40,554 bases of DNA, from the NCBI GenBank assembly GCA_944359065.1, contig CALVSP010000006.1:1-40554 (forward strand), written 5' to 3'. This document shows positions 4,693-40,554 of this stretch, piece by piece. Both the position numbers and the translations under genes were made by a program. The notes under the pieces are model-generated. The model was not told the origin of the DNA, did not search any database, and was given only the letters and a program-made list of their open reading frames with translations. How positions within the stretch are numbered: position 1 is the first letter of the stretch; every line of letters begins with the position of its first letter. The stretch is from an uncultured Bacilli bacterium (GTDB lineage: Bacteria > Bacillota_I > Bacilli_A > RF39 > UBA660).

Positions 4693-6417
4693 ATGTACAA
4701 AAGACACAATGCCTTTACTTTAATTGAATTACTTGCAGTAATAATTATTTTAGCAATAGTAGCACTTATTGCTACACCAATAATATTAGATGTAGTCGAA
4801 GATGCTCGTATATCAGCAGGTAAATCAGAAGCCCAAATTATATTAGGTGGGATAAATAACTATTGTGCAACCGAAGATATAAAATATCAAATGGATAATA
4901 GTTATACAAAAATATGTACATCAGATATGGATGTAAATGATGTACCAACAATGGTTAATTTAGGAAATGCTGAAATAATAAGCATAAATTATGATGGAAC
5001 TAAATTAACAGAATTAGTTATAGAAAGTAATAACCATAAATTTACATTATGCTCAAATAATCAATTTGCAATGGATGATGAAGAATGTCCAAAATTTCCA
5101 GCATCATTAATTTCGTTATTATTAGAACAATATTCTGAAGATAATACAACAGGTTTAGTAAAAGATAGTACAAATGAAAATTTATATTACTATAAAGGGA
5201 CAAATGAGCAAGTAGAAAATAATTTTTTATGGTATGGGGGACATCAATGGCGAGTATTAGAGTTTGATGCTTCTGCTAATACATTGACTTTGATAACTCA
5301 ACAACCATTAACATCAATACAACCAGCGAGTGTCGCATGGGAAAGTGAAGAAGCATATAATAATAGTTATATAAACAAATGGCTAAATGAATATTTTTGG
5401 AATAGTTTAGATAGTAGTATACAAGCAACTATTCAAAATTCAATATTTAATGTTGGTATATACAATAATATTAGTGAAATAACAACAACTAAAAAAGTGG
5501 GATTATTAGATGAAGACCAATATAAAAGAGCAGGCGATGGAACTACTGGGCAAGATTCATTCTTAGATATTAAAGATTATTTTTGGTTAGAAAATAGATA
5601 TAGTTCGTCTCACGTTCGGATCGTGAGCAACGGTGGTAGCCTCAATAGTGCTTCGGTGTCGAATACGTATGGCGTCCGTGCAGTTATAAAAATTTCTGAT
5701 ATAACCATCACTGGAGGCGATGGTACTCTTATGAATAATTATCAAGTAGCAAACAAAACAACAAATACAGATAATGTACAAGTAGGAGAATATATCAACG
5801 TCCCATATAGCGGAAGTGATAATGCTTGTGGAAATGATAATATGTGTACATTTAGAGTAGTAAGTAAAGATGAAGACAGTATAAAAGTAGTACTAAATGG
5901 ATTACTTCCAATGGCAAGTCAATATGGAAGTTCAGTAACAATAACTACGAGTCATACAATATATACACCACTTAATACATTTGTGGAAGGAATAAGCGAA
6001 ACATATCGATATATAGGAAATAAAACATTCTATATAGGAAATTATCCACGTGTATCAGGAACTGGTCAAAATTATGAAGATGTCCAAGACGAAACAATGG
6101 AAGCCAATGTAGGATTACCAACAGTAGGAGAGATGTTCAGTGGAAATGATATCGATATGGCATATCCTGTTGATGGTGCAAAAACAATTGTAGATGTAAA
6201 TACAATCGAAAATCCAACTGCATCAAGTTATTATTGGACAATGAATAGATTTAGTTCGTCTAGCGTTCGCTACGTCAGCTACCTTGGTGACCTCGGTAGT
6301 AGTTCGGTGTCGAGTACGTTTGGCGTCCGCGCAGTTATATATCTGAAGTCAGGGCTGGCAGCATTAGACTTCACTGGAGGTGAAGGTACTCCAAATTCAC
6401 CATATGAAATGCAATAA
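4693..6417 (+). CDS. DGR target protein 1: prepilin-like N-terminus with two C-type-lectin-like variable domains
   Basis: A 574-residue predicted surface protein. It starts with a short basic leader (MYKRHNA) and FTLIE, the type IV prepilin/pseudopilin cleavage motif with Glu at +5, followed by one long hydrophobic helix. The residue before the cut is Ala, not the usual Gly. A Cys-containing pseudopilin-like region follows to about residue 130. Two lectin-fold-like modules come next (about 150-345 and 355-574); the first has WYGGHQWRVL and WLNEYFWNSL, resembling the DUF6273 type. Each module ends in a variable repeat (residues 303-330 and 520-547) that leads into a GVRAVI strand. The start at 4693 has an AAAGGAG site; an upstream TTG would add a poor extension. 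No pilus assembly genes are in the window. Probable role: a displayed binding protein whose ligand surface is diversified by the DGR. Confidence 0.85.
   Translation: MYKRHNAFTLIELLAVIIILAIVALIATPIILDVVEDARISAGKSEAQIILGGINNYCATEDIKYQMDNSYTKICTSDMDVNDVPTMVNLGNAEIISINYDGTKLTELVIESNNHKFTLCSNNQFAMDDEECPKFPASLISLLLEQYSEDNTTGLVKDSTNENLYYYKGTNEQVENNFLWYGGHQWRVLEFDASANTLTLITQQPLTSIQPASVAWESEEAYNNSYINKWLNEYFWNSLDSSIQATIQNSIFNVGIYNNISEITTTKKVGLLDEDQYKRAGDGTTGQDSFLDIKDYFWLENRYSSSHVRIVSNGGSLNSASVSNTYGVRAVIKISDITITGGDGTLMNNYQVANKTTNTDNVQVGEYINVPYSGSDNACGNDNMCTFRVVSKDEDSIKVVLNGLLPMASQYGSSVTITTSHTIYTPLNTFVEGISETYRYIGNKTFYIGNYPRVSGTGQNYEDVQDETMEANVGLPTVGEMFSGNDIDMAYPVDGAKTIVDVNTIENPTASSYYWTMNRFSSSSVRYVSYLGDLGSSSVSSTFGVRAVIYLKSGLAALDFTGGEGTPNSPYEMQ
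5599..5683 (+). repeat. DGR variable repeat VR1 (internal domain of target 1)
   Basis: An 85-bp copy of the template repeat at 40258-40342. I count 10 mismatches, all at template A positions (13, 21, 23, 29, 34, 35, 41, 52, 53, 70 of the unit). It is in frame. At the ten template Asn codons it encodes H, I, S, N, G, S, N, A, N, Y. It is GC-richer than its flanks and ends in the invariant GGCGTCCGTGCAG. Confidence 0.95.
6250..6334 (+). repeat. DGR variable repeat VR2 (C-terminal domain of target 1)
   Basis: An 85-bp template copy with 17 mismatches: 15 at template A positions and two elsewhere (unit positions 27 G to C and 81 T to C). At the ten template Asn codons it encodes S, Y, S, Y, L, D, G, S, S, F. 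It is the most diverged of the four variable repeats and ends 80 bp before the stop codon. Confidence 0.95.
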
Positions 6418-6463
6418 GCAAAAACAGTATAGATAACAGTAATATATAAACGAAGTAAAGACA

Positions 6464-6489
6464 CACCTTGCCGATAAAGTGGCAAGGTG
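6464..6489 (+). promoter_or_regulatory. Conserved hairpin downstream of target gene 1
   Basis: CACCTTGCC and GGCAAGGTG form a perfect 9-bp stem with the 8-base loop GATAAAGT. The same hairpin with identical loop lies at 40209-40234, and in both loci it begins exactly 130 bp after the end of the last variable repeat. About 48 bp around it are identical between loci, more conserved than the coding DNA. It lacks a T run, so it is not a normal terminator. Known DGRs use a hairpin/cruciform near the variable repeat for target recognition; that role is inferred here. Confidence 0.7.
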
Positions 6490-6493
6490 AGGG

Positions 6494-19347: not shown

Positions 19348-19350
19348 TCA

Positions 19351-19701: not shown

Positions 19702-19713
19702 GTGGTTATTCTT

Positions 19714-23026: not shown

Positions 23027-23040
23027 TAATATCATTAAAT

Positions 23041-23096: not shown

Positions 23097-23099
23097 AAA

Positions 23100-23982: not shown

Positions 23983-24062
23983 TATACTATGAATGTTATC
24001 TAAAAATCATCTAATTCAATAGCTAAACAAAAACGTAATTAGTAGTTGATGATTACTTTAAG

Positions 24063-24087
24063 ACATACCTTAATTGGTGTGTTTTTA
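24063..24087 (+). terminator. Terminator after the small ATPase
   Basis: ACATACC and GGTGTGT pair (one G-T) around TTAATT, followed by TTTT. Confidence 0.6.
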
Positions 24088-24152
24088 GTTAGTTCAGTAT
24101 CAGTATGTATTACAGTGTATTGGTAGTAAAATAAGTGTTGAGGTGGTTTATA

Positions 24153-25112
24153 GTGAATTTGAGTTCTATAATTGATAATAAACTGATGGTACATGACTAT
24201 GAATTTATTATTAAGGATTGGTTATTAGATGCAGAAATATCTATCAATAGTAAGGATACATACGAATATGCGGTAAGAAGATATATAAAATATTTACAAG
24301 AAAAAGATATTACTTCAACTAGAAATACAGTTATAGAGTTTAAAAATGAAATGATAAATAGTTATTCAAATAGTACAGCATATATTCTCTTATCGGGTGT
24401 TAAAAGTTTTTATAGATATTTGGCAAGAAAGTATAGTATACAAGATGTTGCTAAAGATGTTAAGTTACCAAAAATACCTAGGGGCTTTAAAAAAGATTGT
24501 TTAACTGTGGAACAGGTATCACAATTGCTTAATTCATTAAATGAAAATACTTTAGCACAGCTAAGAGATAAAGCTATGATTAATTTATTTATAAGATGTG
24601 GATTAAGGTGTTGTGAAATAATAAATGCAAATATTGAAGATATAGGAACTAAAGATGGTCAAAAGGTACTTTACATCAAAGGCAAAGGGCATACCGAAAA
24701 AGATGATTTTGTAGTATTAACTACTGATATGTTAAGAATATTAGATAAATATTTGGTAAAGCGGAAAGAATACATAGATAAAAGTCCACTATTTGCTAGT
24801 GTTAGTAATAGATCTTATGGAAAAAGATTAGATAGTAGTACAGTTAGAGCAATTTGTAAAAGATATTTTAAAAATATAGGAATTAATACACCAAGAGTTT
24901 CAACACATAGTCTACGACATACAGCAATTACTCTTTCTATTTTAGCAGGTGCTGGGATAATAGATGTAAGGGATTTTGCACGACATACTGATATTAATAC
25001 TTCATTAAGGTATATTCATAATCTTCAAAGGTTAGAAAATGCACCTGAATTAAAAATTGATGAATTTTTAAAGAAAAACAGTTCAAAAGAAAAGGATGAA
25101 ATCATAAGTTGA
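24153..25112 (+). CDS. Tyrosine recombinase (XerC/D-like), internal to the element
   Basis: 319 residues from GTG 24153, chosen because GAGGTGG lies 6 bp upstream. It has a SAM-like N-terminal core-binding domain and a catalytic domain with Arg in RCGLRCCEI (about 150), Lys in IKGKG, HSLRH (about 252-256), the second His in ARHTD (about 276) and the nucleophile Tyr in SLRYIHN (about 287). It has no arm-binding domain, unlike the two integrases at the right end. It may resolve multimers or move a smaller cassette inside the element. Confidence 0.88.
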   Translation: MNLSSIIDNKLMVHDYEFIIKDWLLDAEISINSKDTYEYAVRRYIKYLQEKDITSTRNTVIEFKNEMINSYSNSTAYILLSGVKSFYRYLARKYSIQDVAKDVKLPKIPRGFKKDCLTVEQVSQLLNSLNENTLAQLRDKAMINLFIRCGLRCCEIINANIEDIGTKDGQKVLYIKGKGHTEKDDFVVLTTDMLRILDKYLVKRKEYIDKSPLFASVSNRSYGKRLDSSTVRAICKRYFKNIGINTPRVSTHSLRHTAITLSILAGAGIIDVRDFARHTDINTSLRYIHNLQRLENAPELKIDEFLKKNSSKEKDEIIS

Positions 25113-25180
25113 AATCACCCTTTTATGCTACTAAAAACTAAGCCTAATTAACACTAATTATTATTATAGTGTATTAAAAT

Positions 25181-25570
25181 TTAATGATTATTTTTGTTTA
25201 ATAATCCGTTTATATATCCAATAACATTTGCTTTGTCTTCTTTACTAAGTTCATTGTATTTAGTAACTAATAAATTATATTCTTCACTATCATATTTTAA
25301 TAATTCATCAACTTTTGTTGATATATTAGTTCTGTCTAACAAATAATCTATATTGACATCAAAATAATCTGCAAGTTTTATTAATGAAACTAAACTTGGA
25401 TGTTTTGTGTTATACCTATATCCTTGAATTGATGAATCAGATAAATATAACTCCGTTCCTAATTTAGTATCATTTATATTTTTATTTTTCATTATGGTTT
25501 CAAGATTATTCATAGAAATATTTTTTTTAACTTGGTTATAATTATCTTTATTAGAATCAGAAAAACGCAT
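25181..25570 (-). CDS. CI-like XRE repressor
   Basis: 129 residues. A helix-turn-helix at about 20-75 (LETIMKNKNINDTKLGTELYLSDSSIQGYR and IKLADYFDVNIDYLL) is followed by a short helical tail, with no LexA-type peptidase domain. Strong GGGAGGTG site. It is divergent from the gene pair starting at 25716, a switch-like arrangement, and probably represses that operon and itself. Confidence 0.83.
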   Translation of the reverse strand: MRFSDSNKDNYNQVKKNISMNNLETIMKNKNINDTKLGTELYLSDSSIQGYRYNTKHPSLVSLIKLADYFDVNIDYLLDRTNISTKVDELLKYDSEEYNLLVTKYNELSKEDKANVIGYINGLLNKNNH

Positions 25571-25586
25571 TATAATACACCTCCCA

Positions 25587-25694
25587 AGTGGCTTTAGTAA
25601 AAATATTATTCCACAATATGGTTATATAAATACGCCACTATATGAGAAGTTAATTTGAAAATACCACTACAAAGAGTATAAATTATGATATAAT
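25587..25694 (+). promoter_or_regulatory. Divergent control region with inverted AGTGGC/GCCACT sites and extended -10
   Basis: AGTGGC (25587-25592) and GCCACT (25634-25639) are inverted copies, with another CCACT at 25663-25667. For the plus strand TGATATAAT (25686-25694) is an extended -10. The sites flank both start regions and are candidate operators of the CI-like repressor. Confidence 0.5.
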
Positions 25695-25715
25695 AGATTT
25701 AAGGTGGTGAAACTT

Positions 25716-26138
25716 ATGCATGTAAGAATAATTCCTATGTCGTTATATGATGAAACTTTTGTAGGTAAATGTATTGAGGAAATACAAAAAGACTTCTTTA
25801 AAGATTATTTAATTAATGTTAGTAAAGGTTGGTATTATTATGGAAAAAGTGGCTTAGAAGCAAATTCTGGTGATTTATTATTATTTCAAATGAATAATCA
25901 GGTAATTGCCTCTGCTATATTAGAAAATGTTATACAATTTACTAAACCTACTATTGATGGTAATACTGGTGCTTTAATACTTGATAGAAGAACGATCAAA
26001 GTTTTTCCCCCAATTAAAAAAGAAGAACTATCTTTATTTATTAAAAAGTTTATATCTTTTAATCAAGTAAAGCAAAAGTTTGACGTTAAAGATGTAGACT
26101 TTCCTTCTTTGGAAAAGAGGATGAAGGAAAATGATTAA
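25716..26138 (+). CDS. Small protein with PUA/EVE-like features, partner of the nuclease
   Basis: 140 residues from ATG 25716; AAGGTGG lies 9 bp upstream, and a GTG at 25704 is the alternative. Not firmly recognised. The stretch SGDLLLFQMNNQVIASAILENVI resembles the beta-barrel core of PUA/EVE/ASCH-type domains, which bind modified bases or RNA. The aromatic patch GWYYYGKSG precedes it. It overlaps the downstream nuclease gene by 8 bp and follows an extended -10 promoter. A recognition subunit for the nuclease is a reasonable but unproven idea. Confidence 0.5.
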   Translation: MHVRIIPMSLYDETFVGKCIEEIQKDFFKDYLINVSKGWYYYGKSGLEANSGDLLLFQMNNQVIASAILENVIQFTKPTIDGNTGALILDRRTIKVFPPIKKEELSLFIKKFISFNQVKQKFDVKDVDFPSLEKRMKEND

Positions 26139-26778
26139 AATCAAGTTCAATCCTATCAATGATCGCATTATTGATGAAATAATTAAGGAAAAAGAAAGCG
26201 TTAATTTTGATAAAAAATTAATTAAAGATGATGAAAATTTAAGTGGAAGTTTTAATAAGTTGGTTGGAAATTTGACTGCTATGACTTTAAGAAAATATAT
26301 ATCTAACATAATAAATTATCATGGATTAAATTATAAAGTTTCTAATTCTAATGCATTTGTTAAAGGATGTCCTATTGAGTGGGATTTAATTATATTAAAA
26401 AGTAGTGCTGAAGATATAAATAATACTAATGTTTTTGATGCTAGAGATTGTATATGCTTATTAGAATTTAAAACAAGCGGTTTGATGCCTAATCAATTTA
26501 AAGATATTAATAAAACATTTAATACTCAATTTAGTCATTTGTATGCTTTGAGAAAAATTGCAAAAAGAAATATTCCTTTTGGATATGTAACATTTGCAGA
26601 AAGTATTGAATACTATGATAAAAATTTAAAATATTTTGATAACATGAATGGATTAAATAATACTGCGTTTGCATTTTTAGATTATCAAGAATTAGCCCTT
26701 AATGATGAGAAAAAATATATTGATGTATGTAATGATTTTGAAAGATATTTGTTCGATTTATTAAATCAAAGTAAATAG
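26131..26778 (+). CDS. PD-(D/E)XK nuclease-like protein
   Basis: 215 residues. A PD-(D/E)XK active-site pattern is visible: D85 in PIEWDLIILK, then E112-F-K114 in CLLEFKTSG, with a hydrophobic strand before each. The sequence between (VFDARDCICL) forms the expected core hairpin. The family includes restriction and repair nucleases. No helicase or second domain is present. It is coupled to the preceding small gene by an 8-bp overlap. Together they may be a two-gene restriction or anti-phage cassette; this is inference. Confidence 0.65.
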   Translation: MIKIKFNPINDRIIDEIIKEKESVNFDKKLIKDDENLSGSFNKLVGNLTAMTLRKYISNIINYHGLNYKVSNSNAFVKGCPIEWDLIILKSSAEDINNTNVFDARDCICLLEFKTSGLMPNQFKDINKTFNTQFSHLYALRKIAKRNIPFGYVTFAESIEYYDKNLKYFDNMNGLNNTAFAFLDYQELALNDEKKYIDVCNDFERYLFDLLNQSK

Positions 26779-26810
26779 TTAATAAAAGGTTAAGGTGATG
26801 ATAAATATTT

Positions 26811-27848
26811 ATGAAAAATATAAAAAATTTTATTAAGAATAATAAGGCATTATCAATATTATTGTTTACATTATTGATTGTTGCTTTTATAATTGCAGCT
26901 TCATATGTATCAAATAGTAATAATATATTAAGTAATAGTGAAAGTAGTATAATTAATTATGAAGATGATTATTATTGGATTTCAACAGATGATTATTTTT
27001 ATGATGAAAAAAAAGATTTAATCATTTCTAATACTGCATATGCTTTTAAATTTTTAGATAATAATAAATGTTATATTGCTACAATAAATGGTGATACAAT
27101 TTATGACAATAATCAAGTGTATTATAAATTTAAAAAATACAAATCAGCTTTAATAGAAAAGCAAGGAGTTTGGCTTTCTAATTTGGAAGAATGTTCTTAT
27201 CAAATAAATGATAATCACATATACATAAACCCACTTAATGATGATGTAACATTATTTAATGGTGAAATTTTCAAAGACAAAGATAAAATAGAAATAATTT
27301 GGAATGGTGATAATAGAAAGACAACGTATTATAACATAAAAATTGAAAATAATATTTTATTTAGTTACACATTTTTTTTGGAATATGATGATATTTATGA
27401 ATATGAAGTTTTTGATTATGACTTTGATTCACATATTAGAAAACCTGATGATGGAATTGATTATGGAATTAGAATTGACGAAATAATCAAGCCTATATTG
27501 TTAGAACAAAATTTAGATATAAGTGTAGATGAATTTTGGAGGTTCAATTCAACAATGTTGAATTCTGATTCTTTGGAATATAATGCATTTTTTAGTGGTA
27601 GTTTATATAGTTATGGTTCATATAGTAAAATTGGACTTAGATCACCGGGAATTGAACAGGCCCGGGGAAAAGTATTAAAATTATATGCCCCAAGGAGAAA
27701 GTTAACAAGAGAAGAAGTTATTGAAAAAATTTCTAATGAAACAAATATTACATATGAAAATATAGTTGTTCCTGATACTATAAAGTATTTGGAAAATGCA
27801 ACTATTTATATAACCTCAATGGATGTTCTAAGAGATTACATATATTAA
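26811..27848 (+). CDS. Hypothetical membrane-anchored extracellular protein
   Basis: 345 residues, not recognised. A lysine-rich start (MKNIKNFIKNNK) leads into one hydrophobic segment at about 14-33, so the remainder is probably outside the cell and anchored by the N-terminus. The ectodomain is rich in Tyr, Asp and Asn, without Cys pairs or repeats. The C-terminal part has a basic stretch (LYAPRRKLTREEVIEKIS). Ribosome site AAGGTGATG is a little distant. Cargo of the element; could be a surface or immunity protein. Confidence 0.6.
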   Translation: MKNIKNFIKNNKALSILLFTLLIVAFIIAASYVSNSNNILSNSESSIINYEDDYYWISTDDYFYDEKKDLIISNTAYAFKFLDNNKCYIATINGDTIYDNNQVYYKFKKYKSALIEKQGVWLSNLEECSYQINDNHIYINPLNDDVTLFNGEIFKDKDKIEIIWNGDNRKTTYYNIKIENNILFSYTFFLEYDDIYEYEVFDYDFDSHIRKPDDGIDYGIRIDEIIKPILLEQNLDISVDEFWRFNSTMLNSDSLEYNAFFSGSLYSYGSYSKIGLRSPGIEQARGKVLKLYAPRRKLTREEVIEKISNETNITYENIVVPDTIKYLENATIYITSMDVLRDYIY

Positions 27849-27877
27849 AAAGCGATAGATTAACAACTGTCGCTTTT
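27847..27877. terminator. Bidirectional terminator between convergent genes
   Basis: AAAAGCGATAG and CTGTCGCTTTT pair with one G-T around an 8-base loop, with A and T runs at the ends. The minus-strand stop codon lies in the right arm. Confidence 0.75.
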
Positions 27878-28945
27878 ATTTAATTCACAATCTAACTGTC
27901 GCTTATACTTTTCAAGGTCCCTTTTCTTAGATTTATCTTTTGGCCCAAGATGTTCAACATTATAAATTAATGTTTTATTCTTACTTTTATAGATATTATT
28001 CACAAGATAGTCATATGTTTCTCGTTTCGTATTTTCATAATTTTTGACACTTTCGTCTCTGTTAATTTTTTTGCATTTATCGCAAAGAAGTTTTTTGTAT
28101 TTAGATATATAATTGCTTGAGACTATAACCTCTTTGCTTAAAGTAGAAAGACATTTGTGACACTTTGCAAATACTATCCATTTGTGTTGCAACTCTTCTT
28201 CAATTTTAACATAAGTTATAGATGATGCAATATTATTGAGTAAAGTTTCATAAGGAAAAGTAAATAGATTAGTTACATATCTTATTGGAATAAGGTTTTC
28301 ATCATCTAAATTTTTAGTTATCACAGTTTTGTATCTACCGAGGTTAGCCCTTCCATTAATGTTATCTAAAAAATCAACAATTTTAGTAAGAACATCATAA
28401 GTCAAATCATCATCTTCAATTTCAATGGCCTGATATAATGTTTTATAATCTTCATAATTTGATGCTAAGTCTGTATATGCAAAATTTATTATATAAATCA
28501 TAATAATATTATTAACTAATTCGTGAACAGATATATTATCTTCTAAGTATTCACTATTATTTCTTTCTATAGAGTAGATAGGAATATTATAATTTGATAT
28601 GAATTCTATACATAAAGGTAAAACTGCCTTTATTTTTTTATTGATTGTTTCATTACTTACAAAATCTTGGGTTAAATCCTTATATGTTCCATTATTAAAA
28701 ATAGGTTTTAAGGAGTCTTTGAATAATAAATAAAATTTTTCACCTAGTGTTAATATATCTTCAAACAATTTATATTCATCTAATTCCCCATAAGATAATT
28801 CGCTTGGATCATATTTTGTGTTCTTTATATAGCAGTAATCACCATTATAATATGTAGTAAAATCCCAATTATCATAAAACTTACCAAAACAGACTTTGCA
28901 AGACTTATCGACATGATTTTCATTATAAATAATTTTATATTTCAT
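27860..28945 (-). CDS. Hypothetical zinc-knuckle protein
   Basis: 361 residues, not recognised. Three CxxC pairs are visible: C16-x2-C19 (SCKVCFG), KCHKC about 275 and LCDKCKK about 300. The last two probably form one zinc knuckle. The middle is helical (IMIYIINFAYTDL). The C-terminus is highly charged (GPKDKSKKRDLEKYKRQ). It has an AGGTGG site and is transcribed away from the Rep-like gene. HNH-like or DNA-binding roles are possible, but I see no catalytic motif. Confidence 0.55.
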   Translation of the reverse strand: MKYKIIYNENHVDKSCKVCFGKFYDNWDFTTYYNGDYCYIKNTKYDPSELSYGELDEYKLFEDILTLGEKFYLLFKDSLKPIFNNGTYKDLTQDFVSNETINKKIKAVLPLCIEFISNYNIPIYSIERNNSEYLEDNISVHELVNNIIMIYIINFAYTDLASNYEDYKTLYQAIEIEDDDLTYDVLTKIVDFLDNINGRANLGRYKTVITKNLDDENLIPIRYVTNLFTFPYETLLNNIASSITYVKIEEELQHKWIVFAKCHKCLSTLSKEVIVSSNYISKYKKLLCDKCKKINRDESVKNYENTKRETYDYLVNNIYKSKNKTLIYNVEHLGPKDKSKKRDLEKYKRQLDCELNKSDSC

Positions 28946-29078
28946 ATATTATCCACCTGATTTCATCTGATAATTTCTTTTTATGATTATAACACAAAAC
29001 GATATATAATGGAACAACAGAAGCAGAAAAAGGCCTGAAAGATTTCAATTCTACTTCTAAAAAGAAAGGAAAATAAAT

Positions 29079-29936
29079 ATGAAAGATAAACAAAGATATT
29101 TTTTTACGGTTCATGATGAATTATTCTTTGATTTAATTGTTCCTGATGAATCATTAAAAACAAAAGAAAAAAAAGCGAGGGTTGCACTTACAAATAAAAC
29201 ACAGATGTTTACCGTTCATGAATTGATATTGTGGACTATATTGGTGGATTTTAAATTGAAGAACCCAAGCAATTGTTTTGCAATATCATTAAGTTATATT
29301 CATAAAAAATATAGAGAAAAGAGAACTGGAAAAACAGAAGTTATGAGTAAATCAGACCTAGATGCATATATGAATGCATTAAATGGTTTACAAAGAAAAA
29401 GAATAAATCTTAAAATTAGTAATACAAGAGTACGTTATCATCTAAATCATAAAGAAATTGCAAATGGAAGAATATTTAAAATCACAAATATTACAGGTAA
29501 GCAAAACGGGGATTTAATATTTGAATATACATTGGGAGAGTATGGTGAAATAATATCAAAAAGTAAAAGATATTCAGATATGCTTCCTATAGACATATTA
29601 AAGATTCCATATAAGCAAAATATGAAACTTTATATTGCAATGTATATAGCTAGATTGGTTTTTATAAACAAAAAAAGAAATTTAAACGAATTTATTATTA
29701 CAACTGAAAGTATTATGAAAAAAATAAGATTGCATGATAGCAACGGAATTGATATCGGTAAAAATCTCTATGAACTTACTAAGGAAAACAATATTACTAA
29801 ATATTCAAAATTAAAAATATTCAATAATTATTTAAATGATGTATTAGAGATGCTTAAGAAAAATGGGACTATATATAATTATGATACGTCATTAGAGGAT
29901 GGTAGAAAATGTCATATTGATTTAAAAATTAAGTAA
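29079..29936 (+). CDS. Replication-initiator-like winged-helix protein
   Basis: 285 residues. Features such as FTVHELILWTILVDFKL, a middle Lys/Arg-rich region and the element YSDMLPIDILKIPYKQNMKLYIAMYIARL resemble plasmid and integrative-element initiators with paired winged helices. It follows an AAAGAAAGGAAA ribosome site. The next genes are a DnaB-like helicase and the integration module, consistent with a Rep-helicase pair for autonomous replication of the excised circle. No iterons were seen just upstream. The assignment is moderate. Confidence 0.5.
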   Translation: MKDKQRYFFTVHDELFFDLIVPDESLKTKEKKARVALTNKTQMFTVHELILWTILVDFKLKNPSNCFAISLSYIHKKYREKRTGKTEVMSKSDLDAYMNALNGLQRKRINLKISNTRVRYHLNHKEIANGRIFKITNITGKQNGDLIFEYTLGEYGEIISKSKRYSDMLPIDILKIPYKQNMKLYIAMYIARLVFINKKRNLNEFIITTESIMKKIRLHDSNGIDIGKNLYELTKENNITKYSKLKIFNNYLNDVLEMLKKNGTIYNYDTSLEDGRKCHIDLKIK

Positions 29937-29952
29937 TTACATTAAAAAAAAT

Positions 29953-29975
29953 TCTACTTAAAAAAGTAGATTATT
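29953..29975 (+). terminator. Weak terminator after the Rep-like gene
   Basis: TCTACTT and AAGTAGA form a 7-bp stem with an AAAA loop, followed by TTATT. Confidence 0.45.
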
Positions 29976-30012
29976 AAAAAGTTCTTATAAATAAACGAAA
30001 AAAGGAGGGAGT

Positions 30013-30072
30013 ATGGGGGCTAATATATTAATATATAATTCATTAGAAAAAGTTAGCCCTCACAGAATATGA
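30013..30072 (+). CDS. 19-residue leader ORF coupled to the DnaB-like gene
   Basis: A very strong AAAGGAGGGAG site is 3 bp before an ATG that opens the short frame MGANILIYNSLEKVSPHRI. Its TGA overlaps the helicase ATG (ATGA, 30069-30072). The helicase itself has no ribosome site, so it is probably translated only by coupling. GGGCTAA (30017-30023) and TTAGCCC (30053-30059) pair across the leader, a likely translation-control hairpin. Confidence 0.7.
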   Translation: MGANILIYNSLEKVSPHRI

Positions 30073-31655
30073 AAAATGAAGATAAAAACGTATTGGTAAA
30101 AAACATTATATATAGTAGAATTCTTCTAGCTGTTTCTTTAATAAAAAGTGAAAATAAAGAAGAATATTTAAAAAAAATATTAAACATAAAATTTTTAACG
30201 GATATTGAGAAATATAAATGGGAATGTTTGTATAAGTGTTTCACACGTACTGGTAATATTTTAAAAGCAGATATTGTTAGAATTTTTAATTTAGACCAAT
30301 TAAATATTGAATTTATAAATAAATTATTATCTTGTGATGATAATGATGAGATTGATAGTTATTTTAAAATTTATGAAAATGTTATGAAATATACTGATTT
30401 ATTTTATACATTAGGTAATCTAAGGAAGAAATTATTTAACGAAGGAATATTTGATGGGAATGAAATCATACAAAAAATGCATAACATAACAAATGCAAAA
30501 TCAGTAAATGTAGATATTTTAACTAATTTGGAAAATATTTACGATGAAGCTATTGATATGACTAAAATATCAACTTGTATTAAACAAATTGATGATCTTA
30601 ATGCTGAATTTAGAAAAGGAACTGTTAATGCAGTAATGGGATATACTGGTTCATATAAAACATTGTACTGTACCAATGTTTGTTATGGGGCTATAAAAAA
30701 AGGAATTAATACCTGTTATGTATCATTGGAAATAAGTACAAGTGAGATGTATTATAATTTCCTATCTAGATATTCAAATGAGGCAATATTTGATAGAAAA
30801 ATATGTCATACGGATATAAAATTTAAGGAATTATCAGATGATGATAAAAACTATTTGTTTCATACTATAGTACCATCATTTAAAGAGGAATTATCAAAAC
30901 ATTTAGTTGTTATTGATGAAACTAACTTTAGTTCAAACACATTGACAACGTTTGATGATATTTTTAGTACAGTTGAGACAAATTTTATTAAAACTACTGG
31001 AAGAGGCGTTGATTTAGTAGTTATAGATCATTTAAATCTACTTAAATTTAGTGATTCTAGTGGTATGAATGACTATAGCAAGGTTAATCATTGGATGTCA
31101 TATTTTAGAAGAAATTGTATGAATTTTCTAAAAAAACATAAACAAGTGTGTATTTTAGTTGCAGTTCAATGCAGTAGAGATGGTTATGAAAGAGCCAAAA
31201 GAAATGGAGGAACTTACTCATTAACAGGCGTGGCAGAAGCTAACGAAGTTGAAAGAGCATCAGAAAATGTTCTTGCTATCTATTCTGATTGTAGTTTAAA
31301 AGAACATTTAAAAGCAAAAATACAAATAATAAAAGGAAGAAATTGTGGTGAAACGAGTACTCCACTAATGATATCAGTAAATCCTAAATACTATATTGTT
31401 TCAGATAATGATGAAGATGAAGAAAATTTAGATAATGACTTGACAGATGTAACAGCTATTAATAAAAAAGTAAATTTAAACGATAAAAAGGCAGACGAAA
31501 CAACTATTATTCAAAATGAAGATAGTAATATTAATTTTAGCACATTAATGTCTATGGATAACTCAATGAGTAGTACTAATTTGAATATTCCACCTGAGAA
31601 AGCTGAAATTTTGGAAAAACTTGGAGTGCATTTTCTAAAAAATCAGAATCAGTAA
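30069..31655 (+). CDS. DnaB-like replicative helicase
   Basis: 528 residues. A helical N-terminal region (about 1-165) is followed by a RecA-type ATPase: Walker A GYTGSYKT (about 191-198), the conserved CYVSLEIS strand, Walker B LVVIDHLNLL (about 316-325), VAVQCSRDGYERAK and the EVERASENVLAIY loop. These match SF4 DnaB. Walker A has Ser-Tyr where Gly-Lys is more usual. The 70-residue acidic C-terminal tail is unlike host DnaB. Probably unwinds element DNA with the Rep-like protein. Confidence 0.85.
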   Translation: MKNEDKNVLVKNIIYSRILLAVSLIKSENKEEYLKKILNIKFLTDIEKYKWECLYKCFTRTGNILKADIVRIFNLDQLNIEFINKLLSCDDNDEIDSYFKIYENVMKYTDLFYTLGNLRKKLFNEGIFDGNEIIQKMHNITNAKSVNVDILTNLENIYDEAIDMTKISTCIKQIDDLNAEFRKGTVNAVMGYTGSYKTLYCTNVCYGAIKKGINTCYVSLEISTSEMYYNFLSRYSNEAIFDRKICHTDIKFKELSDDDKNYLFHTIVPSFKEELSKHLVVIDETNFSSNTLTTFDDIFSTVETNFIKTTGRGVDLVVIDHLNLLKFSDSSGMNDYSKVNHWMSYFRRNCMNFLKKHKQVCILVAVQCSRDGYERAKRNGGTYSLTGVAEANEVERASENVLAIYSDCSLKEHLKAKIQIIKGRNCGETSTPLMISVNPKYYIVSDNDEDEENLDNDLTDVTAINKKVNLNDKKADETTIIQNEDSNINFSTLMSMDNSMSSTNLNIPPEKAEILEKLGVHFLKNQNQ

Positions 31656-31698
31656 ATTTAATCAAAATAAAATAGTAGAATAAAGGAGGAAAAATTTT

Positions 31699-31893
31699 AT
31701 GAATAACATTAATATGGTATATTCTCCAAAAGAAATTCAAAAAATGTTGGGAATTGGAAAAGAAAGCGTATATGAATTTCTTGAAGAAGTTTATAAAAAC
31801 AAGAAACCATTTATGGTTATAAAGATTGGTAAATTATATAAAATACCAAAAGAGCCATTTAATCGTTGGTTAAATGGAGAAACAAATGCCTAA
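31699..31893 (+). CDS. Excisionase-like helix-turn-helix protein
   Basis: 64 residues. YSPKEIQKMLGIGKESVYEFLEE followed by FMVIKIGKLYKIPKEPFNRWL is the winged MerR-like fold of small excisionases. AAAGGAGG site. It sits 28 bp before the first integrase, the usual xis-int order. It likely controls the direction of recombination at the uvrB attachment site. Confidence 0.8.
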   Translation: MNNINMVYSPKEIQKMLGIGKESVYEFLEEVYKNKKPFMVIKIGKLYKIPKEPFNRWLNGETNA

Positions 31894-31921
31894 ATAGTAC
31901 ATAAAGTTAGGAGGTAGTACT

Positions 31922-33100
31922 ATGAGTGTAAATAAAATTGGAAATGCTTTCTTTGAAAGAGGTTCGTGGTACCATCGTACCAAAACTTTATGTGATAATG
32001 GTACGACAAAATATGGTAAACTTGGAGGATTTACTACCCCAGAAGAAGCTGAAACAAGTTATAAAAAACATGAAGAAGAATATCAAAAACTTAAGCGTGA
32101 ATATTGGCTAATTAAGGAAAATCAAGAAATAATGTTTAAAGATTATATTGTATACTGGTTTGAAAATATGTATTTAGAAAGAACTGAAACTACAACTCAA
32201 AGTTTAGGAGCATATGCAATATATAATTTAATTATTCCAAATATTGAATATGATATTAAATTAAGGCAAGTTACTACTTCATATTTAGATCAAATTATAA
32301 ATGCTTGTTCTAAAATGACAAAATCTAGTGGTGAATTAAGTAGATTTATAATCTATTTATCTCTAAGGGATGCTGTATCTAATGGTTTCATTAGTTTTAA
32401 CCCTGCTAAAGATACTAAAGCATATCCTAGACCTAAACCAAATATAAGAATATTAAGTGAAAATGATATAAAAAAATTACTGGATAATGCACAATATACA
32501 AATTGGTATTTAGAGTTACTGTTGGGATTATTTTGTGGTTTAAGAAAAGGTGAAATATTAGGACTTAAAGTATCTGATTTTAATATTGAAAATAGAACAT
32601 TGAGTATATCTAGGCAACTAGTAAACGATGTTAAATTGGAAAAAGGAACTAATAAAGTTATATCAAGTAAAATTGTTGAAAGACCACCAAAAACTGAAAA
32701 TAGTTATAGAACTATTAGAGTTCCTGATATAATTATCGATGAGTATAAAAAAAGGCTTCAGCTAATAAATAAATATAAATTACAATATAAGGAAAAGTAT
32801 ATAGATAACAAATATATTTCTTGTACTAAATATGGAAAAAACCATGCTTTAAGTTCCCTTAATGGGATTTTAACAAAATTATGTAAGAAAGCAAGTATTC
32901 CAAAAGTTACTGTGCATAGTTTAAGACACACATTTGCCACAATTTTGTTGGAGCAAGGTGTATCGTTAGAACAGATATCTGCTTTACTAGGACATAGTTC
33001 TATACATACAACTTATGAATATTATTGTGAAGTTATTTCAGAAAAAGAAAAAATATTATCTTATATTAATGATGTTTTTAGCGTCGAAAAGGAGTTATAG
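31922..33100 (+). CDS. Tyrosine integrase 1 of the right-end pair
   Basis: 392 residues with an N-terminal arm-binding region, a core-binding domain and the catalytic domain: Arg in CGLRKGE (about 208), HSLRH (about 332-336), GHSS (about 357) and Tyr in TTYEYYCE (about 364-367). Resembles integrases of Tn916-like and phage-like elements. It ends 2 bp before a second, different integrase, so they are co-expressed. Confidence 0.9.
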   Translation: MSVNKIGNAFFERGSWYHRTKTLCDNGTTKYGKLGGFTTPEEAETSYKKHEEEYQKLKREYWLIKENQEIMFKDYIVYWFENMYLERTETTTQSLGAYAIYNLIIPNIEYDIKLRQVTTSYLDQIINACSKMTKSSGELSRFIIYLSLRDAVSNGFISFNPAKDTKAYPRPKPNIRILSENDIKKLLDNAQYTNWYLELLLGLFCGLRKGEILGLKVSDFNIENRTLSISRQLVNDVKLEKGTNKVISSKIVERPPKTENSYRTIRVPDIIIDEYKKRLQLINKYKLQYKEKYIDNKYISCTKYGKNHALSSLNGILTKLCKKASIPKVTVHSLRHTFATILLEQGVSLEQISALLGHSSIHTTYEYYCEVISEKEKILSYINDVFSVEKEL

Positions 33101-33102
33101 AT

Positions 33103-34392
33103 ATGAGTTTAATATTAAGAAATGATACTTATATAAATTGGAAAATATATTCAGTTACTAGAATAAAAGGAAAATATGGTTTTAGAATAAAATTAGATTA
33201 TAATAACGAAACAATAGTTCAACAGAAATCAGGATTTAGTACAAAAAAAATGGCAGAAGAAAGAAGAAATACCGTTATTGCTGAATTAACTAATCATTCA
33301 TATGTAATGTATTCTAATATCAAAATATCTGAATTTTATGACTATTGGTTAAATGAAGTTATGAAGCCCAAGATAGAATATAATAGTTACATGAGTTATA
33401 GAAATGCAATACATAACTATATTATTAAAGAATATGGTAATTTAAAAATGACTACATTAAATCAATCTCATATTCAAAAGTTATATAATAGTGTTACTAA
33501 AAAGCATGTATCTATTGCTAGGCTTGTTAAAACTATAATGAATAATAGTCTTGATTATGCAAAATCTATGAATATAGTTAGTGTTAATGTTGCTACTGAT
33601 GTAGGATTGCCTAAATGTGTCAAAAAGAAGGAATATAGAAAATTAAATATTGATAGTTCTAAAACTTATAATATAGAGCAAGTCAAACAATTACTGCAAG
33701 TTAGCAAGAATACTCCAATTTATTTAGAAATTATGTTTGCAGTATTAATGGGGATGAGAATTAGTGAAATAAATGCAATTAAATATAGTGACATTGATTA
33801 TGTAAACAAAAGGTTACATGCATCAATACAATTAGGAAAAGATTTAAGAATAGATCCTACCAACTTAAAGAAGAAAACCATTACAAAACAGGAAAAGAAG
33901 ATGAAAACTAAAAATAGTAAGCGATGGTTAGATATTCCTGATATATTATTTAATGCAATAATTGAACAAAGAGTAATATATGATAAAAACAAACGAAGAA
34001 GAATAAATGATAAGCATAACCCATTTGTTGATGAAAATTATATTTGTTGTTCTACCTATGGACATTCAAGAAGCCGTGGCTTTCATTATAACTATTATAA
34101 AGAAATTATTAAGAGAGCCAATCTACCATATATACGATTTCACGATTTAAGACATACTTATACTACAATACTAGTTAAAGCTAATTTTAGTGTTAAAGCA
34201 ATTTCACAAATTTTAGGGCATTCAAACGAAATAATTACTGTTGATGTTTATACTGATAAACTTCAAATAATTCAAGATTGTTTAGAATTGTTAAACCCGT
34301 ATATAGAAAAAATACTGCCGTCACGAAAAAATACAAAATTTATAGATTGTACAAAAGTACAACTAAATGATTATTTTTCTAAATTTGTTTAA
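33103..34392 (+). CDS. Tyrosine integrase 2 of the right-end pair
   Basis: 429 residues with arm-binding, core-binding and catalytic domains: Arg in GMRISE (about 218), HDLRH (about 347-351), GHSN (about 373) and Tyr in VDVYTDK (about 383). It is divergent from integrase 1, so not a recent duplicate. It lies closest to the attachment site and is the best candidate for uvrB integration. GGAG site inside the end of integrase 1. Confidence 0.9.
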   Translation: MSLILRNDTYINWKIYSVTRIKGKYGFRIKLDYNNETIVQQKSGFSTKKMAEERRNTVIAELTNHSYVMYSNIKISEFYDYWLNEVMKPKIEYNSYMSYRNAIHNYIIKEYGNLKMTTLNQSHIQKLYNSVTKKHVSIARLVKTIMNNSLDYAKSMNIVSVNVATDVGLPKCVKKKEYRKLNIDSSKTYNIEQVKQLLQVSKNTPIYLEIMFAVLMGMRISEINAIKYSDIDYVNKRLHASIQLGKDLRIDPTNLKKKTITKQEKKMKTKNSKRWLDIPDILFNAIIEQRVIYDKNKRRRINDKHNPFVDENYICCSTYGHSRSRGFHYNYYKEIIKRANLPYIRFHDLRHTYTTILVKANFSVKAISQILGHSNEIITVDVYTDKLQIIQDCLELLNPYIEKILPSRKNTKFIDCTKVQLNDYFSKFV

Positions 34393-34399
34393 ATATCGG

Positions 34400-34428
34400 G
34401 GAAGCATAAATGTGTTTCCTTGTTTTGT
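34400..34428 (+). terminator. Terminator after the integrases
   Basis: GGAAGCA and TGTTTCC pair (one G-T) around TAAATG, followed by TTGTTTTGTT. It would stop integrase transcripts before uvrB. Confidence 0.6.
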
Positions 34429-34528
34429 TATACGAAAAATGGTAAAATATATATTGTTTGGATGACCTGTTTAATAAGATTTAGTTCTGACTAGTCTAAT
34501 TGAATGTTAGAATGTCTTATTTAATAGA

Positions 34529-34632
34529 TTTGTGACTTTTGCTCGTGTAAATTCGTGTAAGCCCAGTATTAGCCATTAAAATAAAGTTTTGTTAATATGA
34601 ATTACACGAATTTTATTAAATAATTGCACGAA
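34529..34632 (+). repeat. Right arm-type repeats of the element
   Basis: TTTGTGACTTTT followed by CGTGTAA at 34544-34550 and 34554-34560, matching the left end in order and spacing. An inverted TTACACGAA is at 34602-34610 and a variant TTGCACGAA at 34624-34632. The last would overlap a possible -35 (TTGCAC) of the element-supplied uvrB start. No gene lies between 34393 and 34678. Confidence 0.6.
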
Positions 34633-34678
34633 TTTTTAGGTTAATACTAATCATAATAATAGAAAGGATGTGACAGCA

Positions 34679-36625
34679 ATGTTTGAATTAGTATCTAAAT
34701 ATAAACCAAGTGGTGATCAACCACAGGCAATAAATGAATTGGTTAAAGGTGTTGAAAATGGCAAGAAATATCAAGTTTTACTAGGAGCAACAGGTACAGG
34801 TAAAACATTTACGGTTGCTAATGTTATTGCTAAAGTTAATAAACCTACTCTAGTTTTAGCTCACAATAAAACTTTAGCAGGACAATTATATAGTGAATTA
34901 AAAGAGCTTTTTCCTGAAAATCGTGTAGAATACTTTGTATCTTATTATGATTATTATCAACCAGAAGCTTATGTTGCTAAGACAGATACTTATATAGAAA
35001 AAGATGCATCTATCAATGATGAAATAGATGAATTAAGGCATTCTGCTACATCTTCTTTACTAAATAGAAGAGATGTTATCGTAGTAGCATCTGTTTCTTG
35101 TATATATGGTATAGGTGAAAAAGAAGAATATAAAAATAAAATGTTAACTTTAAATGTTGGCGATAATGTTGAAAGAAATGATATATTAGAAAAATTAGTC
35201 GAAATGTTATATGAAAGAAACAATTTGGATTTAAAAAGAGGATCATTTCGCGTACGAGGAGATATATTAGAAATAGTTCCTATAAACCAACACAACCATG
35301 CTATTAGAATTGAATTTTTTGGTGATGAAATTGATAAAATATTAGAAGTAGATATTTTAACTAATAAAGTAATAAATAACAAAAAATCAATTTCTATCTT
35401 CCCTGCTAGTCACTTTGTAACTAGCGAAGATAAATTAAAAATAGCTATTAAAAATATACGACAAGAACTAGAACAACAATTAGAAAAATTTAAAAGTGAA
35501 AATAAACTATTAGAATATCAAAGATTACAAGAAAGAACTAATTATGATTTAGAAATGTTAGAAGAAACGGGATTTTGTCGCGGTGTTGAAAACTATTCTA
35601 GACATATAGCTTTAAAAGAACCAGGCGCAACCCCTACTACATTAATAGATTTTTTTGATAAAGATTTTTTATTAGTAGTCGATGAATCACATGTTACTCT
35701 ACCCCAAGTAAGAGGAATGTATAATGGTGATCGAGCTAGAAAAGAAGTTTTAGTTAATTATGGTTTTAGATTACCTAGTGCTTTAGATAATCGACCTTTA
35801 AAATTTGATGAATTTGAATCTAAAATAAATCAAGTTATTTGTGTATCTGCTACACCTGGAGATTATGAATTAGAAAAGACAAATTATAAGTTTGTCGAAC
35901 AGATAATTAGACCAACTGGTCTTTTAGATCCAATTGTAGAAGTAAGAAAATCAAAAAATCAAATAGATGATTTGGTAAATGAAATAAATAATCAAATTAA
36001 TAAAAATGAAAGAACATTAATTACTACTCTAACGATAAGAATGGCTGAAGAATTAACTAATTATTTGAAGAAAATAGATATTAAAGTAGCTTATTTACAT
36101 ACTGAAGTTAAAACATTAGAAAGATTGAGAATAATTAATGATTTAAGAAAAGGTAAATACGATGTTTTGGTAGGTATAAATTTATTAAGAGAAGGCTTAG
36201 ATATACCTGAAGTAAGTTTAGTAGCTATATTAGATGCTGATAAACAAGGATTTTTAAGAAGTGAAAGAAGCTTAATTCAAACTATTGGACGTGCTGCAAG
36301 AAATGCTAATGGTAAGGTTATTATGTATGCTGATACTATTAGTGAATCTATGGATAAAGCCATAAAAGAAACTAACAGAAGAAGAAAAATCCAAGAAGAA
36401 TATAATATTAAACATAACATAACTCCTAAAACAATTATCAAAGAAATAAGAGAAGTTGTTACAAATAATAAAGATATTGAAAAAGATACTAATAAAATTA
36501 GTAAAAAAGATAAACAAAAATTAATGATTGACATTGAAAGAGAAATGAAAGAAGCAGCTAAAAACTTAGATTTTGAAAGAGCAATGGAATTAAGAGATAT
36601 ATTATTTGAATATAAGTCTGAATAA
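34679..36625 (+). CDS. uvrB: Excinuclease ABC subunit B (restored by the element)
   Basis: 648 residues, complete. UvrB verifies DNA damage after UvrA and recruits UvrC in nucleotide excision repair. Motifs: GATGTGKT Walker A, the [11 protein letters not shown] beta-hairpin, the DESH box ([11 protein letters not shown]), [21 protein letters not shown], the later helicase motifs (QTIGRAARN) and the C-terminal UVR motif [22 protein letters not shown]. Start at 34679 corresponds to the MFELVSKYK of the fragment at 17079; AAAGGATG precedes it. The first 91 codons lie inside the element and the remainder is host, joined at 34952. No uvrA follows. Confidence 0.97.
34934..34952 (+). other. attR core (19-bp direct repeat)
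   Basis: TTTGTATCTTATTATGATT inside uvrB, identical to the attL core and in the same reading frame. Left of it the sequence is the element's own uvrB start; right of it is the host gene. Confidence 0.85.
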
Positions 36626-38372: not shown

Positions 38373-38425
38373 TTCCATACACACCGAATTTAGTACTAGA
38401 CAAAAATAAAAAAAAATTATATAAT
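38373..38425 (+). promoter_or_regulatory. Promoter of DGR target gene 2
   Basis: TAGACA (38397-38402) and TATAAT (38420-38425), 17 bp apart, with upstream bases GAATTTAGTACTAGACAAAA shared with the first target promoter. The two targets are thus likely co-regulated; the -10 here is the stronger. Confidence 0.75.
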
Positions 38426-38449: not shown

Positions 38450-40162
38450 ATGGGAAATTTAAAAAATTTTAAGAAATTTGGTTTTACTTTGATCGAATTA
38501 CTGGCAGTAATAATTATACTAGCTATAGTAGCGCTTATTGCTACACCAATAATATTAGATGTAGTAGAAGATGCCAGAATATCAGCAGGAAAATCAGAAT
38601 CACAAATGGTATTAAGCGGAATAAATAACTATTGTGCAACTGAAGATATAAAATATCAAATGGACAATAATTATACAAAAATATGTACATCAGATATGGA
38701 TATAAATGATGTACCAACAATGGTTAATTTAGGAAATGCTACAATTGATAAGATTAAATATAATGGAACTAAATTAACAGAATTAGTTATAGAAAGTAAT
38801 AATCATAAATTTACACTATGTTCAAGTGGTCAATTTGCAATGGATGATGAAGAATGTCCAAGAGATCCTAATTCACTAATAACTAAGTTATTAGCTCAAT
38901 ATTCAGAAGGAAATACTACTGGTTTAGTAAAAGATAGTACAAATCCTAATTTATATTATTACAAAGGAACAAATGAAGAAGTGGCAAACAATTATTTGTG
39001 GTATGGTGGTCATCAATGGCGAGTAATAGAATTTGATACAAGTGCTAATACATTGACACTAATAACGCAACAACCATTAACAGCAATACAACCAACCAGT
39101 GCCGTATGGGAAACTGAAGAAGCATATAATAATAGTTATATAAACATTTGGCTAAATGAATATTTTTGGAATAGTTTGGATAGCAGTATACAAGCAACAA
39201 TTCAAGATACAACATTTAATATAGGAATATATACTGATATAGATGAAATAACGACAACAAAAAAAGTAGGATTATTAGATGAAGACCAATATAAAAGAGC
39301 AGGCGATGGAACTACTGGGCAAAATTCATTCTTAGATATTAAAGATTATTTTTGGTTAGGAAATAGATCTAGTTCGTCTGACGTTCGATACGTGGACTAC
39401 AATGGTTACGTCAATAGTAGTTCGGTGTCGGTTGCGAGTGGCGTCCGTGCAGTTATAAAAATTTCTGATATAACCATCACTGGAGGGGATGGTACTCTTG
39501 TGAGCAATTATCAAGTAGCAAACAAGGCAACAAATACAAATGATGTACAAGTAGGAGAATATATCAATGTACCATATAATGGAAGTGATAATGCTTGCGG
39601 AAATGATAATATATGTACATTTAGAGTAGTAAGTAAAGATGAAGATAGTATCAAAGTAGTACTAAATGGTTTACTTCCAACAGAAAGTCAATATGGAAGT
39701 TCGGTAACAATAACTACAAGTCATACAATATATACCACACTGAATACATTTGCTAATGGAATAAGTAACACATATCGATATACCGGAAATAAAACATTCT
39801 ATATAGGAGATTATCCATCTGGAGCAAATTATGAAGATGTCCAAGATGAAACATTGGAAGTAAGTGTTGGATTACCAACAGTGGGCGAGATGTTCAGTGG
39901 GAATGATATAGATATGGGAAGTTCCAAAACATTTGTCGATGTAAACACAATAGAAAATCCAACAGCATCAAGTTGGTATTGGACAATGAATAGATATAGT
40001 TCGTCTAACGTTCATAACGTGAGCTACAGTGGTTACCTCGGTAGTAGTTCGGTGTCGGATACGGATGGCGTCCGTGCAGTTATATACCTGAAGTCAGGGA
40101 CTTCAGCCATAACCTTCACAGGAGGTGAAGGTACTCCACAATCACCGTATGTTTTGCAATAA
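38450..40162 (+). CDS. DGR target protein 2: prepilin-like N-terminus with two C-type-lectin-like variable domains
   Basis: 570 residues, clearly a paralogue of target 1 along its full length. The leader ends KKFG and is followed by FTLIE, the canonical Gly/Phe prepilin cleavage site (Ala in copy 1), then a hydrophobic helix. The pseudopilin-like Cys region and both lectin-like modules are kept, with variable repeats at residues 307-334 and 516-543. It lies 95 bp before the template repeat, the usual cis arrangement of a DGR target. Ribosome site AGGAGAG. Differences from copy 1 concentrate in the variable repeats and in loops before the second repeat. Expected location: cell surface or a pseudopilus tip. 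Confidence 0.87.
   Translation: MGNLKNFKKFGFTLIELLAVIIILAIVALIATPIILDVVEDARISAGKSESQMVLSGINNYCATEDIKYQMDNNYTKICTSDMDINDVPTMVNLGNATIDKIKYNGTKLTELVIESNNHKFTLCSSGQFAMDDEECPRDPNSLITKLLAQYSEGNTTGLVKDSTNPNLYYYKGTNEEVANNYLWYGGHQWRVIEFDTSANTLTLITQQPLTAIQPTSAVWETEEAYNNSYINIWLNEYFWNSLDSSIQATIQDTTFNIGIYTDIDEITTTKKVGLLDEDQYKRAGDGTTGQNSFLDIKDYFWLGNRSSSSDVRYVDYNGYVNSSSVSVASGVRAVIKISDITITGGDGTLVSNYQVANKATNTNDVQVGEYINVPYNGSDNACGNDNICTFRVVSKDEDSIKVVLNGLLPTESQYGSSVTITTSHTIYTTLNTFANGISNTYRYTGNKTFYIGDYPSGANYEDVQDETLEVSVGLPTVGEMFSGNDIDMGSSKTFVDVNTIENPTASSWYWTMNRYSSSNVHNVSYSGYLGSSSVSDTDGVRAVIYLKSGTSAITFTGGEGTPQSPYVLQ
39368..39452 (+). repeat. DGR variable repeat VR3 (internal domain of target 2)
   Basis: 85-bp template copy with 12 mismatches: 11 at template A and one C to G (unit position 43). 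At the ten template Asn codons it encodes D, Y, D, Y, N, Y, N, S, V, S. Confidence 0.95.
39995..40079 (+). repeat. DGR variable repeat VR4 (C-terminal domain of target 2)
   Basis: 85-bp template copy with 11 mismatches: 10 at template A and one G to A (unit position 20). At the ten template Asn codons it encodes N, N, S, Y, S, Y, G, S, D, D. It is the variable repeat nearest the template, 178 bp away. Confidence 0.95.
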
Positions 40163-40208: not shown

Positions 40209-40234
40209 CACCTTGCCGATAAAGTGGCAAGGTG
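40209..40234 (+). promoter_or_regulatory. Conserved hairpin downstream of target gene 2
   Basis: Same 9-bp stem (CACCTTGCC/GGCAAGGTG) and GATAAAGT loop as at 6464-6489, at the same 130-bp offset from the last variable repeat. Here it stands between VR4 and the template. Since locus 1 has the hairpin but no template, it probably serves target recognition rather than template RNA. Confidence 0.7.
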
Positions 40235-40242: not shown

Positions 40243-40353
40243 ATGGGTGTAAGGCTATATAGTTCGTCTAACGTTCGAAACGTGAACAACAATGGTAACC
40301 TCAATAGTAATTCGGTGTCGAATACGAATGGCGTCCGTGCAGATTCCTTCTAA
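40243..40353 (+). other. Short open frame spanning the template repeat
   Basis: ATG at 40243, preceded by AAGGTGAGG from the hairpin arm, opens a 36-codon frame that reads through the template in the same frame as the targets (Asn-rich) and stops at 40351-40353. Template repeats are usually non-coding; this may reflect derivation from a gene end or allow translation of the unmutated repeat. I do not claim a real protein. Confidence 0.35.
40258..40342 (+). repeat. DGR template repeat (TR)
   Basis: An 85-bp unit containing 26 adenines, arranged as ten AAC/AAT codons in the target frame. It matches VR1-VR4 over the same 85 bp with 46 of 50 mismatches at its A positions. It begins TATAGTTCGTCT and ends in the GC-rich GGCGTCCGTGCAG, the likely initiation-of-mutagenic-homing end. 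Homology to the VRs stops abruptly after 40342. Confidence 0.95.
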
Positions 40354-40554
40354 ACTTAATTTATATGATTAAAGTTGTATAAAACAAGAATTAGGAAACA
40401 ATTCTTATTCCCTAGGTATAAACCTAAAACTATTGGTGATAGTACAACCAGAATAAAAGTGGTTTAGTAGAGTAAAATGGGTCTAGGATTTCTGGTGTGA
40501 AGTAAAATTCTATAAAAATAGATGCGAAAAATAAAAAAGCAAGAATTTCTAGTG
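40343..40554 (+). other. Structured non-coding region after the TR, to the window edge
   Basis: No gene. Three small hairpins in a row: AAGAATT/AATTCTT (40386-40406), TAGGT/ACCTA (40413-40426) and AACCA/TGGTT (40446-40464). In studied DGRs the RNA downstream of the TR is structured and needed for cDNA priming by the reverse transcriptase. The reverse transcriptase and any accessory gene are not seen before the edge. Confidence 0.55.

Follow-up and report, generated by a model that had tools for sequence, protein, structure and literature searches.

A diversity-generating retroelement with dispersed template repeats and prepilin-like targets in an uncultured Bacilli bacterium

Our analysis of 40,554 nucleotides of DNA from an uncultured Bacilli bacterium (the whole stretch is called the window here) leaves us confident, short of certainty, that it holds a template repeat (TR) and four recipient variable repeats (VRs) of a chromosomal diversity-generating retroelement (DGR) serving a prepilin-like protein family, with a reverse transcriptase (RT) and Avd inferred to act in trans and a promoter whose spacing is inferred to be set by a (GT)n tract. 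This reading is anchored in adenine-specific differences between TR and VRs, TR-imposed identity at non-adenine sites, the presence of several separate TR cassettes in a genome and, in sister species, an operon of the form TR-MSL-Avd-RT. The system is a genuine DGR, and it is new in its template layout and, if our reading of the promoter holds, in its control. The original prediction mentioned neither the pilin character of the targets nor the dispersed TRs and the repeat-spaced RT promoter, and the last two are not visible from the window alone.

Results

The TR is 85 nt long (40258..40342, plus strand), and the four VRs, also on the plus strand, sit inside coding genes and are nearly identical to it; VR1 (5599..5683) and VR2 (6250..6334) are the first and second VRs of target gene 1, and VR3 (39368..39452) and VR4 (39995..40079) are those of target gene 2. 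A DGR had originally been predicted here from adenine-directed substitution and AAY codons, and this reading is supported both by our recount and by sister genomes in which MSL-Avd-RT lies within about 1 kb after the TR cassette. Ungapped alignment of positions 40258-40342 with each of the four VRs reproduced the predicted 10, 17, 12 and 11 mismatches, and 46 of these 50 fall on TR adenines, as had been claimed, though adenine accounts for 26 of the 85 TR positions (binomial P = 1e-19; hypergeometric P for single VRs, 2e-5 to 4e-8). The ten AAY codons were likewise found when the TR was read in the VR frame. From VR1 to VR4, differences from the TR number 10, 15, 11 and 10 at adenine sites and 0, 2, 1 and 1 elsewhere, the latter amounting to 4 of 236 non-adenine sites over the four VRs, and the similarity breaks off sharply at both TR ends.

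The two target genes are paralogues that are 82-93% identical in the VR flanks and 84% identical over the rest of the gene. Within the VRs, their non-adenine sites are 98% and 95% identical, and the sites at TR adenines are 27% and 58% identical. Since so few non-adenine sites differ from the TR, and none in VR1, while the paralogues are 7-18% apart elsewhere, the overwriting of the VRs seems to have been recent. The pattern is consistent with VRs overwritten by TR copying that errs at adenines, the mark of retrohoming, although neither reads nor experiments bear on it. No strain variants were found in viral contigs.

Target gene 1 (4693..6417, plus strand) codes for a protein with a prepilin-like N terminus (N_methyl), DUF6273 and two VRs, and target gene 2 (38450..40162, plus strand) has the same composition, with DUF6273 at residues 216-338. 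The class III signal and N-terminal helix of the targets scored above cut-off with both PF07963 and TIGR02532. In target gene 2, the DUF6273 match ends on VR3 and the C terminus is close to VR4, which gives each protein two variable segments. The full-length model has a long N-terminal helix followed by beta sheet, with low confidence beyond the pilin part, and the first VR domain was modelled with a pTM of 0.71. The second-best PDB match of this domain model was the C-terminal domain of Legionella Lcl, with weak scores (E 0.06, prob 0.96, TM 0.41/0.55), and the VR domain, searched as a profile against PDB sequences, yielded nothing useful. The C-type-lectin fold is the usual one for DGR targets, and the predicted fold of the first VR domain is compatible with it, without proof. 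Target-related genes occur on at least seven further contigs of the genome, and on one of these, C25, such a gene adjoins genes for a pilus-type ATPase and for a minor-pilin-like protein. As read from the sequence, target gene 2 has a putative promoter at 38397..38425 on the plus strand (TAGACA, 17 bp, TATAAT). Most prepilin targets have a CCGCGCGCGCG-TAATTTA motif, striking in an AT-rich genome, which is found at 4560-4610, a little way upstream of the -35 element, as well as upstream of targets on C11, C39 and C5 and in relatives; it is degenerate at target gene 2. Whether this motif is an operator or a repeat is a question that we leave standing.

Between the stop codon of target gene 2 and the TR lies a conserved 5' hairpin, CACCTTGCC-GATAAAGT-GGCAAGGTG (40209..40234, plus strand), and the TR is followed by a conserved 3' flank of about 133 nt (40343..40475, plus strand) that goes with complete TR copies throughout the genus. 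The flank has predicted helices and a terminator, with only two pairs showing changes on both sides, and no Rfam family matches the TR RNA. By inference, it is probably the part of the TR RNA that RT and Avd would bind. In the window, the usual terminator (AAATCGAAAAATCGCTTTTT) is replaced by the end of an ISL3-type insertion sequence (IS; 40473..40554, plus strand), in which the contig runs out, 212 bp past the TR; the same IS-end sequence recurs at the end of contig C10. The possibility that the window ends in a tandem array or in TR-like sequence was thereby ruled out.

The hairpin also occurs without a TR at 6435..6492 (plus strand), after target gene 1, and it is retained at other target genes that lack a TR (L014, L015, L017 and L019). 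In six TR-less copies homology ends at about the same point, just past the hairpin, which raises the question of whether this marks a recombination boundary or an RNA-processing boundary.

With the TR region as query against the whole bin, three TR cassettes were found in the genome, on C6 (the contig of the window), C11 and C39, and the hairpin and 133-nt 3' flank are common to all of them. The C11 and C39 cassettes have housekeeping genes as neighbours, apparently fmt and tilS, and no RT alongside. The window TR accounts for the VRs of the window and those of C2, and the C39 TR fits VRs on its own contig and on C5 and C25, with 2-4 non-adenine versus 10-17 adenine differences. These last VRs are outside the limit of 10 non-adenine differences that we set for matching when compared with the window TR, and because VRs on three contigs fit the C39 TR but are out of reach of the window TR, we infer that the C39 TR serves as a template. 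The VR adjoining the C11 TR is fitted better by the C39 TR than by its neighbour, and even the C39 TR, the best fit, leaves 10 non-adenine differences. Decayed cassettes are present as well, as a 3' flank alone on C34 and a truncated TR on C3. Among same-genus genomes, 17 of 18 gave a match to the TR region, and in five (G002, G006, G008, G011 and G013) RT-linked and RT-free cassettes occur together; a covariance model of the TR flank also found RT-free copies in another genus. Given RT-free cassettes both here and in genomes with an RT-linked one, it is probable that several dispersed templates depend on one RT acting in trans, and the use of these satellite TRs, likewise probable, is inferred from the TR-VR matches.

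No RT is present in the window, and the cognate MSL-Avd-RT operon was not found in the bin, which is 85% complete. Because the contig ends inside the IS end, three possibilities stand: an RT past the IS, an RT at some other place, or loss of the RT. In nine same-genus genomes MSL-Avd-RT comes after the same TR cassette or what is left of it, with the RT above the RVT_1 cut-off and the MSL, a MutS domain I protein, above that of MutS_I. Avd was detected in relatives only, below the curated cut-off (DivGenRetAVD, E 9e-10). The RT of the genus has YMDD and GLSIGNLTSQ motifs. Several relatives carry the operon between mfd and spoVT; in the present genome that site is empty, and a location of the RT there was ruled out. 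In G005 all that remains between these genes (L234, around 1500) is a scar of the TR 3' flank, so this genome has probably lost the operon, and in G010 the TR has been lost. The bin yielded a single RT, which belongs to a second DGR on C76 (L010), arranged avd-TR-RT with a bAvd-like neighbour. The enzyme looks DGR-type, is cut by the contig end and shares 39% identity with the genus RT, and the contig also has an apparent mobilisation-relaxase gene. As a candidate for the cognate RT it was rejected, since its own TR has different flanks and no VR for that TR exists in the bin.

All nine RT loci have the arrangement TTGACA-AC-(GT)n-GATAAT between the TR terminator and MSL, with n of about 4-10 and small interruptions of the tract in two. 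The -35/-10 spacer measures 20 bp in five genomes, 22 bp in two (one with an interrupted tract), 18 bp in one and 10 bp in one, the last at a locus that also lacks a TR; spacers of 10, 20 or 22 bp, found in eight of the nine, are outside the usual 16-18 bp. Tracts of (GT)7 or longer number eight in 18 genomes, seven of them at the RT promoter, and about 0.04 would be expected in total from base composition. Sigma factor use and promoter function were read from consensus only. The (GT)n promoter does not qualify as a trait of DGRs in general: when 80 DGR-like RT loci from Bacilli and related bacteria were compared, only those of the same genus had tracts of (GT)6 or longer near the RT. A pattern scan of 386 genomes of the family encountered the arrangement at a single RT locus (G011) and in front of one surface-protein operon (L246, 1500, minus strand; TTGACA-(GT)n-TATAAT), the latter not a DGR.

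Homopolymers were seen at other loci, with poly-G tracts in the promoters of target genes from two further genera. A different Bacilli MAG (L151) has four target-type genes, each with a TTGCAA-N10-G8/9-TATAAT promoter (G8-G9 tracts at 1475, 2565, 6228 and 7320), and two VRs of these genes match the local TR with 17 adenine and 0 non-adenine differences and with 18 and 5, respectively. In another genus (G018; L121, 413), a G10 tract precedes TATTAT upstream of a prepilin DGR target. From these arrangements we infer that expression may be phase-variable, for the RT in this genus and for the targets elsewhere, in the absence of strain-level or expression data. A G9 tract within the start of an MSL reading frame (L129, about 420) is a possible translational switch.

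The remainder of the window has other features. A probable integrated element occupies 17067-34670; on its left side is a second copy of the uvrB 5' end (17070-17352, 83% identical to 34670-34952), and it contains PcfJ, IS110, a DnaB-like gene and a tyrosine integrase (33103-34392) right before intact uvrB. A ParB-like gene at 15396-17018 includes a tract of approximately 45-bp tandem repeats (16263-16757), and 7689-15278 codes for a very large GH94/glucoamylase-type protein of 2529 aa.

Discussion

Other explanations of these data have to be weighed against the trans-acting DGR proposed here. The window could be part of an ordinary one-locus DGR whose RT lies just past the contig end, the other TRs being dead duplicates and the (GT)n tract incidental. 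Sister genomes do have an RT after such a cassette, and decay is evident in the lone 3' flank of C34, the truncated TR of C3 and the TR lost from G010; however, a dead duplicate should not fit VRs on three contigs with 2-4 non-adenine differences, as the C39 TR does and the window TR does not, and seven of the eight long (GT) tracts stand at the RT promoter against the 0.04 expected. We regard this explanation as unlikely. It is also conceivable, and in our opinion quite unlikely, that the species has lost its RT and that the VRs are fossil diversity, as might be suggested by a bin without a cognate RT, by the scar left between mfd and spoVT in G005 and by the replacement of the TR terminator by an IS in the window. 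A relic is difficult to reconcile with a VR1 free of non-adenine differences, with 4 of 236 over the four VRs and with paralogues 7-18% apart elsewhere, and the missing RT carries less weight in a bin that is 85% complete and a contig that breaks exactly here.

That the C76 RT drives the window TR is very unlikely, even though it is the sole RT found in the bin, has a DGR-type look and stands beside a bAvd-like gene; it comes with a TR of its own with different flanks and without a VR in the bin, the contig has what reads as a mobilisation-type gene, and the enzyme shares no more than 39% identity with that of the genus. Gene conversion or ordinary divergence among pilin paralogues, without any reverse transcription, is scarcely credible. 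The targets are a dispersed paralogous family and some VR segments are identical between contigs, as such a process would have it, but it does not account for 92% of the differences falling where a single non-coding copy has adenine.

Under the trans-acting DGR that we favor, the cassette would be transcribed as hairpin, TR, 3' flank and terminator, and an RT-Avd complex encoded elsewhere is inferred to bind this transcript via the 3' flank. The RT would then copy the TR with errors at adenines, and the cDNA would act in trans to overwrite VRs, with a particular class of these, spread over several contigs, assigned to each TR. The (GT)n tract is inferred to set the -35/-10 spacing of the MSL-Avd-RT promoter, so that slippage would turn mutagenesis up or down. 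Promoter switching by simple repeats is familiar from Haemophilus, where the (TA)n tract of hifA/hifB makes a promoter phase-variable and switches surface proteins. Our further proposal, that (GT)n slippage flips hypermutation on and off in single cells and that one RT re-diversifies a pilin-like adhesin family in trans, is a hypothesis for which we see the case as evenly balanced. If true, a slippage-controlled RT promoter would make the mutation rate a heritable and reversible switch, and dispersed TR cassettes with a common RNA scaffold would make DGR templates modular RNAs usable in trans. Through its targets, the system also ties DGRs to surface structures that resemble type IV pili in little-known gut Bacilli. 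The regulation of DGR activity is largely open, with no more than speculation in a recent reconstitution study (PMC12875486). An incomplete literature search, limited to titles and the beginnings of abstracts, found nothing tying a DGR RT to repeat-based phase variation.

Several components of the system have already been described, namely MSL (PMC10053308), remote targets (PMC4891356) and trans action (PMC10907252). The DGR of Bordetella phage BPP-1 (avd-TR-brt; PMC12875486) has a TR RNA with a structured 3' spacer, as is predicted here, and is also similar in Avd, an error-prone RT, adenine-specific changes, and a target stem-loop and end motif. However, its target is a phage tail fibre and its single TR lies beside the RT, whereas in the present system the targets are prepilin-like and have two VRs apiece, the TRs are dispersed and MSL is part of the set, and sister species of the genus have a repeat-spaced RT promoter. 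Thiohalocapsa PB-PSB1 (PMC10907252) also has several DGR loci, some incomplete, and trans action was inferred there from perfect non-adenine matches; its targets are conflict systems and its loci are shaped by transposons, unlike the conserved TR-RNA cassette found here, dispersed with pilin genes.

Treponema denticola (PMC4891356) resembles our system in its surface-protein targets and remote VR genes, and its TR varies among strains and individuals; the passages of that article that we consulted mention no TR cassette that lacks an RT but has RNA flanks of its own in a genome that also carries an RT-linked cassette. In DGRs with MSL as an accessory (MutS domain I, PF01624; PMC10053308), MSL adjoins the RT as it does in this genus, but the repeat-spaced promoter and satellite TRs set the system of this genus apart. 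The poly-G promoter of Neisseria porA (PMC3639595) shares with the RT promoter of the genus a simple repeat within the promoter, yet the former switches a surface protein, whereas the latter would switch a mutator.
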